Shown here: positions 5,951 to 40,807 of the stretch, piece by piece
Numbering within the stretch: position 1 is the stretch's first letter
Layout of the letters: each line of letters begins with the position of its first letter
Source: Candidatus Hydrogenedentota bacterium
Lineage (GTDB): Bacteria; Hydrogenedentota; Hydrogenedentia; Hydrogenedentales; JAJRTN01
DNA: 44,721 nt
Direction: 5' to 3'
Assembly: GCA_024278275.1 (NCBI GenBank)
Contig: JAJRTN010000024.1
Coordinates: 1-44,721, forward strand
The notes under the pieces: generated by a model
The model's database searches: none
Told to the model about the DNA's origin: nothing
Seen by the model: only the letters and a program-made list of their open reading frames with translations
Made by a program: the position numbers and the translations under genes

Positions 5951-8074
5951 TCAACGGTGGCGTTGGCCGCGCAGCAGGGGCTCGTTTCGCCAGGCCGCCT
6001 CGGGGCCGAAACGCTTGATCACCGCCCCTTGCCCGGCGGGCCGTCCGCCGTAGAGACCGGCGACCAGCGAGGCAGAGCCAACACCGGCGAAGATAAGCAT
6101 GATGACGGCCCAGCGCAGGGCGTGCATGATCGGACCCCGGTAATTGGCACGACCCATGACGGGCACCTCCCGTCCCTCATGGGGAAGGAGGAGCACCAGT
6201 ACCGTTGCCAGAACCGCGTGCATGGCGATGACCCACTCCGTGATAAGCCGGTTTTCGGCGAAGTGAGGGAGCTGGCGTTCAAAGTTTCCCACCACCATCA
6301 CCCAAAGCAGCACAAGGAACAGCATCTGCCCACGCCCAAGGGGCTTTTCCGGCACCAACGCCACGGGCCGGACGAGATGACGTCCCATCACCAGGAGGAC
6401 GGCGATGGCCAGGGTGAAGAAGGCCAGGTTAAACCAGGTAAGCGTGCTGAAGGTGACGGACTTGAAGAGGGGCGCGCACAGGGATTCGGCCACCGCGCCT
6501 TCCTGGATCCACCGGGACACATTCTTGACCAGGTTCAGGTAGGGCACGGCAAGCAGGGTGAAAGCGGCGGCCAACGCCGTGAGGCCCCGTCCCCGCCGTG
6601 GATTATCCATGAGCCGTCCCTTGGAAGCGGCCAGAATACCCATGGTCACGGCCAGGCCGATGCCGTTGATGAAACCATAACTTTGCTCCATGACACTGTG
6701 CCAGTTCGCGCTCTGCCAATGGGCCCACGTGCCTGGGGCCACGCCGCGGGCGGGGTTCCCGGGCCAAATCATGATCAGCTTGAGCAGCACCGCGCCCGCG
6801 AAGCCCAGGCCGCCGAAGGTGCCGCACACCAGGGACGTCCAGATGACCGGGGCCAGTTGATTGCGATGCAACCACAGAAGGGCGCCTAGGAAGACGCCCA
6901 AAACACCCGCCCAGTTATCGCCGCGGGGCGGTGTCATGCGGAATCCCGCGCCCCCGAAACTAAGCAGCACGGGAAAAAGGAGAAAGCCCGCGAACCATCC
7001 CAAGGCCATGTGAAGAAACAGGGAAGCGCCATTGGCGAACCTGCCGTGGCGGTGGAAGTAGATGGCGATACCGACGGCCATGCCCAGTATCCAGCCCAGG
7101 TGCGTGGGGTATCGCAGAACGATATCGGGCCAGTTCGCCACAAGCAGATCTTCCACCGGAACGTGTTGGTCGGCGGCCATCCGGCGCGCCACTTCGCCGA
7201 GGCCCTGGTAGTGAACCAACCATCGGCGGAGGAAGGCCCCGCCCCCCAGGGCGATAAAGATACGCTGCAGGAAGTGACCGGCGTAGAAGCCCGCATAGGC
7301 ATACAGCACCAGCGCCGGATGGGTGATAAACAATCCCACGAGCAGTCCGCAGAGCACCAGCACCGTAATGGCCAGCGAATAGGAGGTCAGGATCGCCAGG
7401 AGGTAGCAGCCCGCGGCAAGAATGGCCAGCATGGCGATGGCGAGGCTGAGGGGGATGCGGACACGCATGCGGTTTACCAGGTCGTAAACACAGATCGCGG
7501 CCAACGCCACGAGGGCCTGCAACCAATCGCTGTCAAACCAGTACAGGGGGTTCTCATGCCGTGACCAGGTTCCATCGCCCACCGCGGCCCAGGCGTCGAG
7601 CCGGGGTTCGATGAGCAGGGCGAAGCCGGCCCAGGCGATAAGAACGAAAAAGAGCGGGCCGAGGATACGCAGGAGCCGATCCTGGTCCAAGACGGCGGGC
7701 AGTGCGGTGCCCGCGCCCCCCATGCCCGCCCACAGGAAACCAATGACATAGAGACAGAAAAAACCGTAGACCTGGCTGGGGAAATGACCGGACTGGGTGT
7801 AGGCGATGACGTGGCCGTAGGACATGGACCCGCCGAATCCCCAGGCCAAGGCGCCGAACAGGGCGAAAAAGGCCACACGTCGCCGCCAGTCTTCGCGGCC
7901 CGCCATGAGCGCCACGGTGATGCCGGCCAGGGCTCCCGGCACCATGGCACCGTATTCATGGCCGAAGTTACCCCGGATCCCCCAGCCGATGGACAAAGCC
8001 AGCCCGGTCAGAAGAAGCGCCCCGGGACCCAGGCCGCGCAAACCGTGAAACGTGCCGTCTTCGGTGCTGGTCAT
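5951..8074 (-). CDS. Large polytopic membrane protein, family not recognised
   Basis: Protein of 707 aa with well over a dozen hydrophobic segments and short loops, so an integral inner-membrane protein. The N-terminus is GLGPGALLLTGLALSIGWGIRGNFGHEYG; conserved-looking glycine-rich motifs include GWGIRGNFGHEYGAMVPG (around 30-47) and GFGGSMSYGH (around 79-88), with further charged residues inside predicted helices. I know of no transporter or enzyme family with these motifs. Such proteins appear as conserved hypotheticals near carbohydrate genes in related phyla, but that is recollection and not shown here. It stands alone: no tightly spaced neighbour. The ATG at 8074 has no strong Shine-Dalgarno sequence, so the start is moderately certain. 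Confidence 0.72.
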   Translation of the reverse strand: MTSTEDGTFHGLRGLGPGALLLTGLALSIGWGIRGNFGHEYGAMVPGALAGITVALMAGREDWRRRVAFFALFGALAWGFGGSMSYGHVIAYTQSGHFPSQVYGFFCLYVIGFLWAGMGGAGTALPAVLDQDRLLRILGPLFFVLIAWAGFALLIEPRLDAWAAVGDGTWSRHENPLYWFDSDWLQALVALAAICVYDLVNRMRVRIPLSLAIAMLAILAAGCYLLAILTSYSLAITVLVLCGLLVGLFITHPALVLYAYAGFYAGHFLQRIFIALGGGAFLRRWLVHYQGLGEVARRMAADQHVPVEDLLVANWPDIVLRYPTHLGWILGMAVGIAIYFHRHGRFANGASLFLHMALGWFAGFLLFPVLLSFGGAGFRMTPPRGDNWAGVLGVFLGALLWLHRNQLAPVIWTSLVCGTFGGLGFAGAVLLKLIMIWPGNPARGVAPGTWAHWQSANWHSVMEQSYGFINGIGLAVTMGILAASKGRLMDNPRRGRGLTALAAAFTLLAVPYLNLVKNVSRWIQEGAVAESLCAPLFKSVTFSTLTWFNLAFFTLAIAVLLVMGRHLVRPVALVPEKPLGRGQMLFLVLLWVMVVGNFERQLPHFAENRLITEWVIAMHAVLATVLVLLLPHEGREVPVMGRANYRGPIMHALRWAVIMLIFAGVGSASLVAGLYGGRPAGQGAVIKRFGPEAAWRNEPLLRGQRHR

Positions 8075-14838: not shown

Positions 14839-15597
14839 TTGCTTTCCATGGACTGGATCATTCTGCTCGTCGGATCGGCCATCGCTTTTCTGGCGGGTTT
14901 CGTGCAGGGCTACACGGGTTTCGGCATGGCCCTTATCGCCGCGCCCGCCCTGCTCTTCCTCTATCCGCCCGAATTCGTCACCCCCACGGTGATTCTTTTG
15001 AGCACGGTGAACACGGCCTACGTGGCGTACAACGCCCGCCGTCATGTACGCCTGCGCATCGTGGGACCCCTGGTAGTGGGGGCATTCTTCGGGATTCCCG
15101 CGGGGGTCTGGGCACTTCACCACACCAACGAGGTGTGGCTGAAAATCGCCCTGGGCGCCTTCGTGCTGGCTTTCGCCCTGACCCTGCTGTCGGGCTGGCG
15201 CAAGCCCGTCGCCCGCGCCGTCCCGGCCATGATCCCCGTGGGCATGCTCAGCGGTTTTTCCGGTGGAGCGTCCAGCATGGGCGGACCGCCGGTAATCCTT
15301 TTCCTCGCCAACCAGGACACGGACCGGGACGCCTTCCGGGGCAACATCGTCTGCTATTTTCTGATTATCAACCTGTGGGCCATCGCCAATTTCCTGTGGC
15401 GCGACGACATCTCCACGGACATTGTGCGGCAGGTGGTCATCTTCGTCCCCGCCGTACTATTGGGATCTTTCACCGGCGTCCGCACCGCGCCCCACGTGCC
15501 CAATGAACTGTTCAAGAAGATCGCCATGGGCGCGGCGGCCATCATGGGATTCGTGCTGCTGGCGACCAATCTCTACCGGCTGTTCCACGGGGCGTAA
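14839..15597 (+). CDS. TauE/SafE-family membrane permease
   Basis: Inner-membrane transporter of the sulfite/organosulfur exporter family (formerly DUF81); the substrate is not evident. Start set at the TTG at 14839 (252 aa), because AAAGGAG (14826-14832) precedes it by 6 nt; the ATG at 14848 is the alternative. About eight hydrophobic segments are visible. The family's duplicated motif appears as FVQGYTGFGMALIAAPAL near the N-terminus (about 20-38) and LSGFSGGASSMGGPPVILFL near the middle (about 136-155). Both neighbours are unrelated enzymes, so no pathway context is available. Confidence 0.9.
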   Translation: MLSMDWIILLVGSAIAFLAGFVQGYTGFGMALIAAPALLFLYPPEFVTPTVILLSTVNTAYVAYNARRHVRLRIVGPLVVGAFFGIPAGVWALHHTNEVWLKIALGAFVLAFALTLLSGWRKPVARAVPAMIPVGMLSGFSGGASSMGGPPVILFLANQDTDRDAFRGNIVCYFLIINLWAIANFLWRDDISTDIVRQVVIFVPAVLLGSFTGVRTAPHVPNELFKKIAMGAAAIMGFVLLATNLYRLFHGA

Positions 15598-34047: not shown

Positions 34048-35331
34048 GTGAAGATCCACATGCCCTATGGCGACGAGACCCTTGAAGCTTCCCTGGAAGG
34101 CGTTTGCCCTCTGGACACCCTCGATATAGCCGACACGCCGGCGCTTCCCGACGTGACCGCCGCGGCCCGGGCGGGCTTCCTCGACCCTACCGGTCCCGTG
34201 AAGCCTTTGCCCGAGATCGTTCGACCCGGCGAACAGGTGGCCATCGTGGTTTCGGATTCCTTTCGGACCACCCGCGTCGAACGGATACTGCCCCTGTTAC
34301 TCGACACCCTGCGGCACGCCGGCATCCGTGAAGAAGACACCTGTTTCGTGTTCGCCACCGGTTCGCACCGGGGCCCCACGGAAGACGAAAAGGCCGTCAT
34401 TCTCGGGGAGGCGGTGTACCGGCGCTTCAAAGACCGCGCCTTCTCCCACGACCCCGACGACCCGGCGAATCTTGTCTGCCTGGGGGAGACCTCACGGGGC
34501 ACGCCCGTCGAGATTAACCGCCGTGTCCACGAGGCGGACCGGGTGATCGCCACGGGCGCCGTGGTGCTCCACTACTTCGGCGGATTCGGCGGGGGGCGCA
34601 AATCCATCGTGCCCGGCCTGGCCTCCAAGCGGACCATTGCCCACAACCACGCACGAAACCTGCACGCCACGGAAGACCGGCTCGACCCGGCGGTACGCAT
34701 CGGCGCACTCGATGGAAACCCCGTGGCCGAAGACATGCTGGAAGCGGCTTCGCTGGTACACGTCGATTTCATGATCAACACCGTGCTCAACCGTGACGGC
34801 GAGATTGCCGGGATCTTCTGCGGTCACCTGGACCAGGCCCACCGCGCGGCCTGTGCCTTTGCCCGAACCCTTTTCACGGTCGAGATCCCCGAACAGGCCG
34901 ACCTCGTGATCGCGTCGGCGGGCGAGGCCAAGAACTTCATCCAAAGTCACAAGGCCCTGTTCAACGCCTTCCAGGCCATGAAACCCGGGGGGAGAATCGT
35001 CTTTCTCACCCGCTCCCCCGAGGGCTTCGGAGGCAACAAGTTCGCCCAATGGCTGGCCCTGCGCACCCCCGGGGCCATCATCCGCGCACTGCGGGAGGAT
35101 GCCGAGATTAACGGCCAAACCGCCCTCTCCACCGTCGAGAAAGCCCCCTCCACGCTCTTTGTCACGGAGCTTTCCAACGAAGCCGTGACCCTCCTCGGCG
35201 GTCGGAAGGCCCCGGGTTTCCAGGCGGCCCTGGACCTGGCGAAAACGGAGCTTGCCGCGGCGGGTATTACCCGGCCCACCGCCTATCTCATGCCCTCCGC
35301 CAGCTACAGCGTACCCTTCCATCCCGCGTAA
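34048..35331 (+). CDS. larA: LarA-family (DUF2088) nickel-dependent racemase-like protein
   Basis: Cytoplasmic racemase/epimerase-like enzyme related to lactate racemase LarA. Start at GTG 34048 (427 aa, KIHMPYGDETLE), 5 nt after GAGGAGG. Landmarks: VSDSFRTTRVERILPLLL near 69-86, FATGSHRGPTEDE near 104-116 (the His of the nickel-pincer environment), HYFGGFGGGRKSIVPGLAS near 172-190 (the lysine bound to the cofactor in LarA) and the following H in TIAHNHARN. No larB/C/E cofactor genes are adjacent, and many DUF2088 proteins act on other 2-hydroxyacids, so the substrate is open. The last codons and stop lie inside a 28-bp repeat that recurs 5.4 kb downstream. Confidence 0.85.
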   Translation: MKIHMPYGDETLEASLEGVCPLDTLDIADTPALPDVTAAARAGFLDPTGPVKPLPEIVRPGEQVAIVVSDSFRTTRVERILPLLLDTLRHAGIREEDTCFVFATGSHRGPTEDEKAVILGEAVYRRFKDRAFSHDPDDPANLVCLGETSRGTPVEINRRVHEADRVIATGAVVLHYFGGFGGGRKSIVPGLASKRTIAHNHARNLHATEDRLDPAVRIGALDGNPVAEDMLEAASLVHVDFMINTVLNRDGEIAGIFCGHLDQAHRAACAFARTLFTVEIPEQADLVIASAGEAKNFIQSHKALFNAFQAMKPGGRIVFLTRSPEGFGGNKFAQWLALRTPGAIIRALREDAEINGQTALSTVEKAPSTLFVTELSNEAVTLLGGRKAPGFQAALDLAKTELAAAGITRPTAYLMPSASYSVPFHPA

Positions 35332-35345
35332 ACCGTTTGACTTGC
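35318..35345 (+). repeat. 28-bp perfect direct repeat, left copy (candidate attachment site)
   Basis: Begins TCCATCCCGCGTAAACC and ends GTTTGACTTGC. It contains the final codons and TAA of the LarA-type gene. Identical over 28 bp to 40780-40807. Confidence 0.85.
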
Positions 35346-35592: not shown

Positions 35593-38500
35593 ATGAATGA
35601 TTTGCAGAACAAGGGGCACAACGAAAAAGCGGTTCGTTTGGTTGAATACCTTCTTCGCTTGGCATCTCTGCGCACCAAGACAATTCGCGATATTCAGGAG
35701 TACAAGGACGAAAAAGGGCAAGTCCTCTGGATTTCTTCCATCCCCCGGGAAAAAGGCTGCTTCACGCAGGCGTGGGGGCGTGACGCGGCATTTGATCCAG
35801 ATGTTTGGGTAGAAATTCAGAATGAAAATGAACCCGACTTACCCAGTGTGCCTGACACGTGTGAAGACTGGGTTGAAAGAAGCTCGCTACGCAACAAGGC
35901 TGATCTGCCTGAACTCCGGCCTACAATCACGATAGAGGTTGAGAATCCACATTGGGGGGAAGGGAACAACGTTTCTCCCGCCAAACAGATCGGCCAATCG
36001 CTGGAGGTTACAAGTACAGATTGGAAGGAAGGGAGCGAGGAATCAAGATACCTCTCGCAGACCAAGAGCCTTGAAGATCATCCGGAAGTCCAACAGGCTT
36101 GGAACCGTTACGTTGAAGACCAATGGCTTCCCTGGATGGAGGAACACAATCGATGGGAAAGCGTTCATAAGCTTTACTCTGAATTGTTCGCTATCCACCA
36201 GGAGCAGATTCGACTTGGCGAGGAATATGAACTTGTTCTTGGCCTTGGTCTATTGACCTGGAAGACGCCCACGGGCCAGCACGTATGTCGCCACCTGATT
36301 GTTGCCAACGCCCTTCTTGAATTTGAGGCGCGTTTGAAAAAGTTCACGGTCCGACCAATGCCGGATGGCGCAATCCTTCGCCCCGAACTCGACATGCTGG
36401 ACATTGAGGAATGTCCGGCACGATCCGAGGAAACAGCAAAGTCTGCACTGCGCAACGCTAATGACGATCCGTGGGAAAAGGTTTGTATTGAAGGTGTATT
36501 GCAAGCCTTGGTGCATTCAATCAGTTCACAGGGCGAATATGACGACACTTTGGAAAAGAAAGGGGTTCGGGCATCCGACAAACCCGTTGTTGAATACGCG
36601 CCGGCCCTTATACTCCGCAAACGTTCCGGCAAGGGTCTCACCGAGACCCTGAAGAGAATCAAGATTAGCGTCGAACAGGGTGGAGAGATACACCCGGAAT
36701 TCGCAGATCTTGCGGAGATTCGTCCGAAACAGGATGCCGACCCGGGTAACGAGTACCACGATCCCGGAGATACGAGCGGGGGGTTCGACGGCGAGATTTT
36801 CTTTCCCAAGCCATCGAATAAAGAACAGCGGCGCATCGTAGACAAGCTTCGGGTGGCCAGCGGTGTTCTTGTGCAGGGCCCACCCGGAACAGGAAAATCT
36901 CACACCATTGCGAATCTGATCTGTCACCTGTTGGCAACTGGCCAGCGAACACTTATCACGGCCAAGACACCGCGCGCGCTTCGGGTACTTGAAAAACTCA
37001 TTCCCGAAGAATTGCGGCCCCTTTGTATCAACCTTCTTGGCAATGGTCCGAATGAAAGACAGTCCCTTGAGTCCAGCGTCGACGGTATTCTCCGGAAGAA
37101 TAATGCATGGAATGAAGACAAAGCCAAAGAAGAGTGCGAGGACCTTAAGGCGCGACTCCGAAAACTTCGTGAAGAAAAGACCGAGTTGGATCGAAGACTT
37201 CGCGCCATCCGGGAATCGGAAACTCATTCTCAATCCGTGGCGGAGGGAACCTATAAAGGCACGGCCGCCCGAATCGCGGAAGCCGTCAATCGTGACAGAA
37301 GCGCCTATGAATGGTTCACGGATATTGCGGCACTGGATCAGCCCTGCCCTGTTTCCGAAACCAATCTAAGACGCGTTCTTGAGGAACTCCGCCATTTCAC
37401 GCCCGAGAAGCGAGAAGAACTGAACCTTCTTTGGCCCGGAGCATTGCCGTCGGCGATCAAGGTAAACAGCCTTTTTGAACAACAAGAAAAAGCCGGACAG
37501 AATGAAAAGCTGTGTTTGGAAAAGGGTGCGGAAGAGCAGATCGCCAAGGCTTTGATACCCGAGTCTCCTGTTTGTGGTTCATGTCGTGCATTATTAGTAT
37601 TACAAGATGATAGCAATTCTTCAACCGATTCGGAGCAGTTTTGTTCCAAGTGCGGAACGCAAAACCGAGTTCGAGCCTATGTCAGTCGTGAAAGCGTTCG
37701 TGCCGCGTATGATGCGCTTCGCGCCGTTCAATTGAAGCTCCGGCAAATATCGTCGAAAAGTGCTCCCTGGATGATTAATGCACTTCGCGATGTTCTTGTT
37801 GGCAGTCCTGCTTCATGGCGCAAGATCCTTCATTCTACCAGAGCTATAATCGCCCCGATTGAAAAACGGGTGGCGCTTACGGACAATGCTAATCTACACT
37901 TCCCGGATGATATGGATATACAGACGTTGTTCGCAGATGCCTGCAAGCTGAAAGAGCACCTGCAAAATGATGGAAAATTGGGCTGGGGTCCATTTCGTCC
38001 AAGAGTGGTCAAGGACTGCATACGGATAATAAAATCAGTCCGAGTTGATGGCCGGCCCTGTTCTACTCTTGACGCGGTTTCCACCCTGGCGGACGTGCTA
38101 CATGTCCGCATCGAGTTTAAGAAAGCATGGAGCTTTTGGATGGGGGTGCGTGCCCAAAGGACCCAAGGTCCTTACACGTTGCAGCTTCATGCACTTAAAG
38201 CGCTGTACGATAGCCTTGAAAGCGTCTTGTCGATCAAGGGACTCATCGAGAAGTGCCGGGAGACGATGCGGCGGTGTCTTGTGGCTGACGAGCCCGTGTG
38301 GTCCGATGAATCTCAGGTTGAGAAAACAGTCGCGTCCTTTCGTCTTGCACTTGTCTTTTATGAAAAACGCCGTGCTTACAAGAAAATAAAAGATATTGAA
38401 GCCCTCGTATCCAGTATCGCCGATGGGAGTGATGCGCACCCAATAGCGAGCGAACTGCTTGAGGCAATCCGTCAACGCGATAAGGATGGCTATGCCCAAG

Positions 38501-40692
38501 CTATGGATAAAGTTCAAACTCTTCGCTTAGAGCGCGAGCGTGTTCAAAAGCTGGATGAATACCTCTTGGAATTGGCCGCTGATCTTCCATCATTGGTGGA
38601 GGATTTGAAGCGAAATCCGGAGAGTGCCTGTTGGGATGAGCGCCTGTCTATGATTAACGATGCCTGGCACTGGGCACAGGCACGACATTGGATCGAAGAA
38701 TACATTCGAAAAGAGGATCTTCCCGCACTCGCCCAGCGGGCGAAGCAGATTGAGGACGAGATCAACGCCACCATTGCGAAGCTTGCATCACTCCGTGCCT
38801 GGTCTTACTGCTTTTCGCGTCTTGAAGAAGGTCACCGCCGAAACATGAAGGCTTGGCAAAAAAATGTCAGCAAGATAACCAAGTCTGGTACAGGGAAACA
38901 GGATTATTTTCACCGAAAAGAGGCCCAGAAGAATCTGAACAATTGTCGTTCGGCGATCCCAGCGTGGGTAATGCCGCTACACCGCATCTGGGACACGGTG
39001 CCGCCAGAGCCTGGCATGTTTGATTTGATCATCATTGACGAGGCCTCACAGTGCGGATTCGAAGCACTTCCGCTGTTCTTTATGGCCAAGAGGATTTTGA
39101 TTGTTGGGGATGACAAGCAAATCAGCCCAGATGCGGAAGGCGTCAAGTTAAACACGGTAACTCAACTGATTAACCAATTTCTAAACGACTTCGAGCAAAA
39201 GTCATCGTTTAACATCACTCGAAGCCTTTTTGACCAAGGGGAACTCAGGTATAGCGCTAGCCAAATTGTCTTGCGTGAGCATTTCCGCTGTATGCCTGAG
39301 ATCATACGTTTCAGTAGTGATCATTGGTATACACCGCCAGGTTTGACCCCATTGCGACAGTACGGGCCAAACCGCTTGCCGCCGATTGAACATGTTTTTG
39401 TCAAAGGCGGCTATCGAGAAGGACAAAATAACCATGTGGTCAACCGACCGGAGGCCGATGCCGTCGTCGAAAAGATCATCGAATTATGTAAAGATAAACG
39501 TTACTCGGAAAAGACAATGGGGGTCATCATTCTGCAGGGCAATGCACAGGCGGGCTTGATTGAAGGCCAATTGCTTGAGCGACTCGGTGCGGAGGAAATG
39601 GAGAAGCGGCGTCTTATCTGCGGAAACCCCTACAGTTTTCAGGGAGACGAGCGCGACATTATATTCTTGTCGATGGTGGCCGCCAGTAATGAGCGGATCG
39701 GCCCGCTCACCAAAGCCGCAGACGAGAGACGGTTCAATGTAGCGGCCAGCCGTGCCCGAGACCAGATGATTCTGTTCCATTCCGTAACAAGTGATGACCT
39801 GAGCGCGGCATGCCTCCGACGGAAATTACTTGAGTTTTTTGAGAATTTGAAACCGCAAGAAATCGCCGGGATTGGCCGAGATGTGCTTGAACGACACGCA
39901 TCCCAAGATAATCGGAGTATTCTGAGTCCCCCCTCGCCTTTTGATAGTTGGTTCGAGGTTGATGTCGCTCTGGCATTGCTACGCAAGCATTTCGTTGTTC
40001 TCCCTCAGTATGAAGTGGCGGGCAAACGAATTGACCTCGTGGTGGAGGGCGGGCAAGCACGATTGGCGGTCGAGTGTGATGGGGATCACTGGCATGGTGC
40101 CGACCGATACGAAGAGGACATGGAGCGGCAACGGCAGTTGGAACGTTGCGGCTGGGAGTTCTTTCGGGTCAGCGAAGCCGCCTTCTATTCGAATCAAGAG
40201 GAAGCATTGGCCCCTCTTTGGCGAATGTTGGAAGATCGGGGTATTCTGCCTGATAATGCAACAGTTTATGAGAACGCAATATCCGGCGAGCAAAATGGCA
40301 ACGGCCATGAATCCGACGAAAATTCCGATGATGAAGTGGAGGAAGATGATAATGAGGAAGATGTCCTCGAATCGTCTTCCGACAGTGGCACCCCCAATAC
40401 CCAGTCCCGGCGTCACCCGGAAGAAGTCTCGTCTCAAGAGATTTCGGAGGCAATTATCCGCGCCTTGCGAAAACGCCCGAATAATTCATGCACATTACAT
40501 TCCTTGACAGGACGCGTCCTCAAAGAAGTGGGCGTACTCACACGTGGCAACCCGCGCGCGAAGTTTGAGAAGCGCGTACGACGCATGGTTAGATCGCTGT
40601 GCGAAAAGGATCAAATTGAGGAGTACAAGGCCAAGAATAAGCGCGTTCGGCTGTTGGAATCGTCTTATCAGGAGTCCCTTTTTCCCCATTGA
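35593..40692 (+). CDS. SF1 helicase-nuclease (Vsr-like PD-(D/E)XK), Hhe-like putative anti-phage protein
   Basis: Protein of 1699 aa from ATG 35593; an in-frame TTG at 35524 would add 23 residues. Unrecognised N-terminal region to about 400 (VEYLLRLASLRTKTIRDIQE, VLWISSIPREKGCFTQAWG). SF1 helicase: Walker A GPPGTGKS at 429-436, Walker B IIIDEAS with D1149-E1150, GDDKQ at 1172-1176, YSFQGDERD near 1347 and RRFNVAASRARDQ near 1379-1391. Between the two RecA lobes lies a long insert, partly coiled coil, with a zinc ribbon (C661, C664, C684, C687). Nuclease domain about 1450-1550: E1455, D1481 and E1494-C-D1496 in LAVECDGDHWHG, Vsr/DUF559-like. An acidic low-complexity linker (about 1570-1600) precedes a winged-helix-like C-terminus. 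Helicase plus Vsr-type nuclease in one chain recalls Hhe anti-phage proteins, but DUF4011 is not seen. Confidence 0.85.
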   Translation: MNDLQNKGHNEKAVRLVEYLLRLASLRTKTIRDIQEYKDEKGQVLWISSIPREKGCFTQAWGRDAAFDPDVWVEIQNENEPDLPSVPDTCEDWVERSSLRNKADLPELRPTITIEVENPHWGEGNNVSPAKQIGQSLEVTSTDWKEGSEESRYLSQTKSLEDHPEVQQAWNRYVEDQWLPWMEEHNRWESVHKLYSELFAIHQEQIRLGEEYELVLGLGLLTWKTPTGQHVCRHLIVANALLEFEARLKKFTVRPMPDGAILRPELDMLDIEECPARSEETAKSALRNANDDPWEKVCIEGVLQALVHSISSQGEYDDTLEKKGVRASDKPVVEYAPALILRKRSGKGLTETLKRIKISVEQGGEIHPEFADLAEIRPKQDADPGNEYHDPGDTSGGFDGEIFFPKPSNKEQRRIVDKLRVASGVLVQGPPGTGKSHTIANLICHLLATGQRTLITAKTPRALRVLEKLIPEELRPLCINLLGNGPNERQSLESSVDGILRKNNAWNEDKAKEECEDLKARLRKLREEKTELDRRLRAIRESETHSQSVAEGTYKGTAARIAEAVNRDRSAYEWFTDIAALDQPCPVSETNLRRVLEELRHFTPEKREELNLLWPGALPSAIKVNSLFEQQEKAGQNEKLCLEKGAEEQIAKALIPESPVCGSCRALLVLQDDSNSSTDSEQFCSKCGTQNRVRAYVSRESVRAAYDALRAVQLKLRQISSKSAPWMINALRDVLVGSPASWRKILHSTRAIIAPIEKRVALTDNANLHFPDDMDIQTLFADACKLKEHLQNDGKLGWGPFRPRVVKDCIRIIKSVRVDGRPCSTLDAVSTLADVLHVRIEFKKAWSFWMGVRAQRTQGPYTLQLHALKALYDSLESVLSIKGLIEKCRETMRRCLVADEPVWSDESQVEKTVASFRLALVFYEKRRAYKKIKDIEALVSSIADGSDAHPIASELLEAIRQRDKDGYAQAMDKVQTLRLERERVQKLDEYLLELAADLPSLVEDLKRNPESACWDERLSMINDAWHWAQARHWIEEYIRKEDLPALAQRAKQIEDEINATIAKLASLRAWSYCFSRLEEGHRRNMKAWQKNVSKITKSGTGKQDYFHRKEAQKNLNNCRSAIPAWVMPLHRIWDTVPPEPGMFDLIIIDEASQCGFEALPLFFMAKRILIVGDDKQISPDAEGVKLNTVTQLINQFLNDFEQKSSFNITRSLFDQGELRYSASQIVLREHFRCMPEIIRFSSDHWYTPPGLTPLRQYGPNRLPPIEHVFVKGGYREGQNNHVVNRPEADAVVEKIIELCKDKRYSEKTMGVIILQGNAQAGLIEGQLLERLGAEEMEKRRLICGNPYSFQGDERDIIFLSMVAASNERIGPLTKAADERRFNVAASRARDQMILFHSVTSDDLSAACLRRKLLEFFENLKPQEIAGIGRDVLERHASQDNRSILSPPSPFDSWFEVDVALALLRKHFVVLPQYEVAGKRIDLVVEGGQARLAVECDGDHWHGADRYEEDMERQRQLERCGWEFFRVSEAAFYSNQEEALAPLWRMLEDRGILPDNATVYENAISGEQNGNGHESDENSDDEVEEDDNEEDVLESSSDSGTPNTQSRRHPEEVSSQEISEAIIRALRKRPNNSCTLHSLTGRVLKEVGVLTRGNPRAKFEKRVRRMVRSLCEKDQIEEYKAKNKRVRLLESSYQESLFPH

Positions 40693-40779: not shown

Positions 40780-40807
40780 TCCATCCCGCGTAAACCGTTT
40801 GACTTGC
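40780..40807 (+). repeat. 28-bp perfect direct repeat, right copy
   Basis: Identical to 35318-35345. Immediately before it is the small palindrome AGACCTCGGTCT. Its last bases supply the TTGACT -35 hexamer of the downstream operon promoter. Confidence 0.85.

Follow-up and report, generated by a model that had tools for sequence, protein, structure and literature searches.

In the window, which is a 44,721-nucleotide stretch of a Candidatus Hydrogenedentota genome (contig JAJRTN010000024.1), one open reading frame encodes a protein of 1699 amino acids counted from its ATG. The gene stands alone between LarA and a YceD-PlsX-FabD-FabG cluster (Table 1). An earlier note on this DNA had described complete SF1 helicase motifs, and we located the full UPF1-like set from Q through VI: Q at residues 409–416, I (GPPGTGKS) at 429–436, Ia at 453–463, II (DEASQ) at 1149–1153, III (GDDKQ) at 1172–1176, IV at 1226–1241, V at 1347–1362, and VI at 1379–1395. 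By phmmer, the solved structures nearest to the helicase core were senataxin, Sen1, UPF1, and SMUBP2. The E/D/E-x-D nuclease core, also described earlier, was found as WFEVD (1453–1457), IDLVV (1480–1484), and ECDGDHWHG (1494–1502) around the match to the MTES_1575 family, and these residues were nearly invariant in an alignment of 35 full-length sequences, which come from many phyla. Since the conserved motifs recur throughout these 35 sequences, the architecture lies far beyond chance, and the intact motifs predict both ATPase and nuclease activity.

Table 1. Positions of the features discussed. Coordinates refer to the window, except for the attC-like sites, which lie in relatives.
Feature	Position	Strand	Evidence or remark
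Helicase-nuclease CDS	35593..40692	+	1699 aa
N-terminal module, residues 1-400	35593..36792	+	AlphaFold2 mean pLDDT 86.4
DUF4011-like part, residues 193-261 (ELVLGLGLLTW...CRHLIVANALLEF)	36169..36375	+	P-values of 2e-4 to 5e-5 with DUF4011 profiles in hhalign
RecA-like domain 1 (motifs Q, I, Ia), residues 405-500	36805..37092	+	Pfam AAA_11; UPF1 by phmmer
Helical insert (motif Ia to motif II), residues 505-1090	37105..38862	+	Almost entirely helical in the AlphaFold2 model (mean pLDDT 86.1)
Zinc-ribbon-like CGSC...CSKC pair, residues 661-687	37573..37653	+	Private to the window copy
Helicase core, motif II-VI part, residues 1140-1400	39010..39792	+	Pfam AAA_12 3e-17; senataxin/Sen1/SMUBP2 by phmmer
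Vsr-type nuclease REase_MTES_1575, residues 1454-1546	39952..40230	+	Pfam PF18741 4.4e-27, full-length profile
Acidic linker, residues 1580-1597	40330..40383	+	Sequence
Basic C-terminal domain, probable winged helix, residues 1613-1688	40429..40656	+	Alignment of 14 sequences; fold read from sequence pattern
Direct repeat, left copy	35318..35345	.	Perfect 28 bp; spans LarA stop codon
Direct repeat, right copy	40780..40807	.	Perfect 28 bp; just upstream of YceD
attC-like sites	L002:6419-6484; L003:14852-14935; L013:14822-14894; L015:14147-14217		At or just after stop codon

Downstream of the nuclease, the acidic linker and the basic helical end (residues 1613–1699) were present as described. 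The winged helix proposed for this end is read from the sequence pattern, which makes the tail probably winged-helix-like; a search for a winged helix there gave no Pfam match and no convincing PDB profile match. The tail is kept in close relatives and is swapped or absent in many distant ones.

The long insert between motifs Ia and II was modeled as almost entirely helical. A Foldseek search with the model of the first helicase domain plus the insert returned mainly long coiled-coil proteins with poor TM-scores and was uninformative. The CxxC...CxxC pair reported earlier as an inserted zinc ribbon does lie within this insert, with CGSC at residues 661–664 and CSKC at 684–687. It falls in an insertion of about 40 residues, partly with pLDDT below 50 in the AlphaFold2 model, that all 34 other aligned full-length relatives lack at the corresponding position. 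Present at that position in one of 35 aligned sequences, the ribbon was ruled out as a family-defining feature and is idiosyncratic to the window copy. The homologue L014 carries a ribbon farther along the insert (residues ~698–721, CPACGRDNRVR...VCGSC), with its halves in reversed order relative to the VCGSC...CSKCGTQNRVR of the window copy. The homologue L015 (L015:9968-14152), about 68% identical to the window protein in the best segment, lacks some 220 insert residues in frame, reflecting either a natural deletion or decay.

The N-terminal module consists of helices, including a long helix at residues 164–211, followed by long strands at 212–256, and it was conserved throughout all branches of the family. 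When its AlphaFold2 model (residues 1–405) was compared with the PDB, no fold match had an E-value below 0.27, and a sequence search against the PDB likewise found no match; we therefore dropped the idea of a known solved fold. DUF4011 (PF13195) was absent from the 25 top-ranking Pfam families of the protein, a list that reached E = 0.32, and an HMM search did not find PF13195 in the genome. A profile of the family N-terminus, compared by hhalign, nevertheless aligned residues 193–261 with the second half of DUF4011 at a score of 40–44, whereas none of 160 column-shuffled profiles scored above 23 and the reversed profile scored 13. The first half of DUF4011 was undetected. A long helix followed by an LxLGfLxW...hPLl/RHLl element, placed upstream of the helicase, is common to the family and to DUF4011 proteins. 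On these profile comparisons, the N-terminus and DUF4011 likely share a common origin, as distant cousins. The description of this region as unrecognized and unlike DUF4011 thus holds for Pfam, which gave no clear DUF4011 match, and for the PDB, where a model with a pLDDT of 86 found no counterpart, but not for the stretch that aligns with the second half of DUF4011.

The gene was recently acquired by horizontal transfer, as indicated by its low GC content (0.513, compared with 0.623 in the rest of the window), by its nearest relatives in the tree, which belong to Competibacteraceae, Nitrospirota, and Planctomycetota, and by a perfect 28-bp direct repeat (TCCATCCCGCGTAAACCGTTTGACTTGC) that brackets it. 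The repeats enclose a low-GC insertion of 5.46 kb without a recombinase gene inside. Only these two copies were found genome-wide when 3 mismatches were allowed, and a chance origin was rejected, its probability being near 1e-11 over 500 x 500 bases. Relatives share 55–73% identity across phyla, and one of them (L004) comes from a genome of the same order (G001). Any match to the protein was found in 18 of the 68 genomes of the phylum, a distribution compatible with defence or any other accessory role. Flanking repeats also occur in three of the closest relatives. Those of L015 measure 38–45 bp and those of L003 40 bp at 98%; the repeat flanking L002 spans 114 bp at 68–95% and is palindromic and attC-like. 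Between the repeats of L002 we also read by eye a hicBA-like toxin-antitoxin pair (~6680–7100).

The gene ends within GCC(TAA/TGA)C, which contains its stop codon, in four relatives (L002, L003, L013, and L015), and a palindrome with the attC extrahelical-base pattern and a GTT core follows. The distant relative L053 shows the same arrangement slightly downstream of its stop codon at 15262. The palindromes were scored with the sites already in view, after the sequence past each stop codon had been read; on this basis L003, L013, and L053 scored 15–19, and 0.5% of random windows reach 15. Scores were weaker for L015 (12, reached by 2.9% of random windows) and L002 (11, reached by 6.1%), and these two calls draw on the position of the sites and their near-identity to each other. 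The integron integrase TIGR02249 exceeded its cut-off in the L002, L003, and L013 genomes, counted per genome and not per contig of the gene. It also did so in those of L005 and L006, which showed no attC next to the gene. It fell below the cut-off in the L015 genome and exceeded it in none of 14 control genomes. In L013, a GTTAGGC core before the gene marks off a cassette some 4,951 bp long. In the window, an attC site was rejected after scanning found none downstream of 40692, and no TIGR02249 integrase exceeded the cut-off in its genome (G000). Close relatives may therefore travel as unusually large gene cassettes, with the window gene itself outside this arrangement. Tentatively, and as a reading that we regard as quite possible, the family would be an unnamed clade in its own right, made up of immune proteins that join helicase and nuclease in a single gene and that spread between phyla partly in unusually large integron cassettes of about 5 kb and also by chromosomal insertions leaving direct repeats of 28–45 bp.

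Among known systems, ProA and Hhe were the best NCBIfam matches, with scores of 196 bits for ProA (NF058533, cut-off 1500) and 141 bits for Hhe (NF042953, cut-off 2000). None of 10 genomes of relatives exceeded the ProA cut-off. The window protein resembles Hhe in combining an SF1 helicase with a Vsr-type nuclease in one giant protein and in having a module upstream of the helicase, here with its remotely DUF4011-like stretch. It differs in lacking DUF4011 by HMM, in scoring far under the cut-off, in belonging to a separate clade, and in the distance from Walker A to motif II, which is about 720 residues compared with 940 in Klebsiella Hhe. The ProA match (7e-58) covered the helicase, the nuclease, and part of the C-terminus, whereas the first ~600 positions of the ProA profile were unmatched in the family. 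PDC-S37, a PADLOC candidate, was the best PADLOC match (8e-56), although the match was partial and in two stretches, the best of which covered positions 932–1450 of 1550. Literature searches on PDC-S37 and on a defence role of ProA returned nothing usable. The HEPN-transglutaminase-SF1-Vsr-wHTH giants (MTES_1575; PMC3710099) share the SF1 helicase, the MTES_1575-type Vsr nuclease, and a C-terminal wHTH/DUF3320; the window protein differs in having no HEPN or transglutaminase match, and DUF3320-like tails occur only in some distant members of its family. A tree built from the helicase and nuclease segments, which included some but not all of the other Hydrogenedentota homologues, resolved the family as a separate clade (98–100% support; stem length 1.64 substitutions per site), distinct from Hhe and ProA as well as from further DUF4011 proteins. 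Judged by sequence, the window protein thus belongs to a widespread, unnamed family of its own beside the DUF4011 helicase-nucleases Hhe and ProA, which agrees with the earlier suggestion of a subfamily distinct from Hhe.

The protein could instead be a divergent but ordinary member of the Hhe/ProA type, with the same family and mechanism and a DUF4011 too diverged for Pfam. Its parts follow the same order, residues 193–261 align with the second half of DUF4011 in profile comparison, and ProA and Hhe lead the NCBIfam matches, all of which this reading would accommodate. We regard it as unlikely given the absence of DUF4011 in Pfam together with the undetected first half of that domain, scores at 7–13% of the curated cut-offs, and a separate clade on a long stem. 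We consider it probable that the horizontally acquired gene encodes, on its own, an anti-phage defence protein of a separate family, in which a UPF1-like SF1 helicase with a long helical arm is joined to a Vsr-type nuclease and a probable DNA-binding tail. This role is inferred from homology and from some defence-gene neighbours. The nearest named families, ProA, Hhe, PDC-S37, and Mokosh, are defence proteins or candidates, and the intact motifs and horizontal acquisition also speak for this role. In L006, pglZ lies directly downstream of the homologue, a family match on an Acinetobacter plasmid adjoins BREX brxL, and a Sphingobium homologue is flanked by a restriction endonuclease gene on one side and AbiE genes on the other. 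Among 146 pooled neighbours, genes of the restriction, BREX, SspE, and Pbe types occurred alongside many ordinary ones, a tally made without a matched control, and when the neighbours of the closest clade were checked singly, PglZ was the only known defence gene, in one of ten cases. The neighbours in the window (LarA, YceD, PlsX, FabD, and FabG) are housekeeping genes that form no defence island, which counts against a defence role. A purely housekeeping context, which the earlier note had named as evidence against its reading, therefore describes the window copy and not the several relatives that adjoin defence genes.

A DNA repair or mismatch-type enzyme, pairing Vsr with a helicase for the host or a mobile element, would fit the Vsr fold, the single-gene organization, and a helicase core whose nearest solved structures include UPF1, senataxin, and SMUBP2. 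The patchy, horizontally acquired distribution and the defence neighbours of several relatives make this improbable, more so than the Hhe/ProA-type alternative. Carriage by phages was set aside: phage records held two partial matches only, and four IMG/VR contigs (putatively viral) carry relatives. On an Acinetobacter pittii plasmid (L196, 2179–8395), a family match without an annotated CDS adjoins BREX brxL; the longest reading frame there to include a Walker A motif has 991 amino acids, so this gene may be broken. In Rhodococcus, two family members (L040 and L042) lie near each other on one contig.

For the defence protein that we favour, the tail and the N-terminal module would engage or recognize DNA, and the helicase motor would translocate on it or remodel it, with a 5'-3' polarity predicted from UPF1-like relatives. 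The nuclease would then cut the DNA, so that foreign DNA would be destroyed, or the cell killed if host DNA were also cut. We infer this sequence of recognition, remodeling, and cutting by analogy; the substrate, polarity, trigger, and phage restriction are likewise predicted. Invader DNA has been proposed as the direct target, without a modification partner, of the HEPN-transglutaminase-SF1-Vsr-wHTH giants (PMC3710099), and in Hachiman a sensor helicase can release a nuclease on damaged DNA (PMC12278908).

Set apart from Hhe and ProA, the clade can be named and tested in its own right. The remote profile match suggests that the DUF4011-like module would be older and broader than the DUF4011 HMM reveals. 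Integrons store anti-phage systems, according to Darracq et al., Getz et al., and Kieffer et al. 2025 as cited in PMC12444791; if the attC reading is true, such integron-stored systems would extend to a single-gene enzyme of 1,600 residues found in several phyla.
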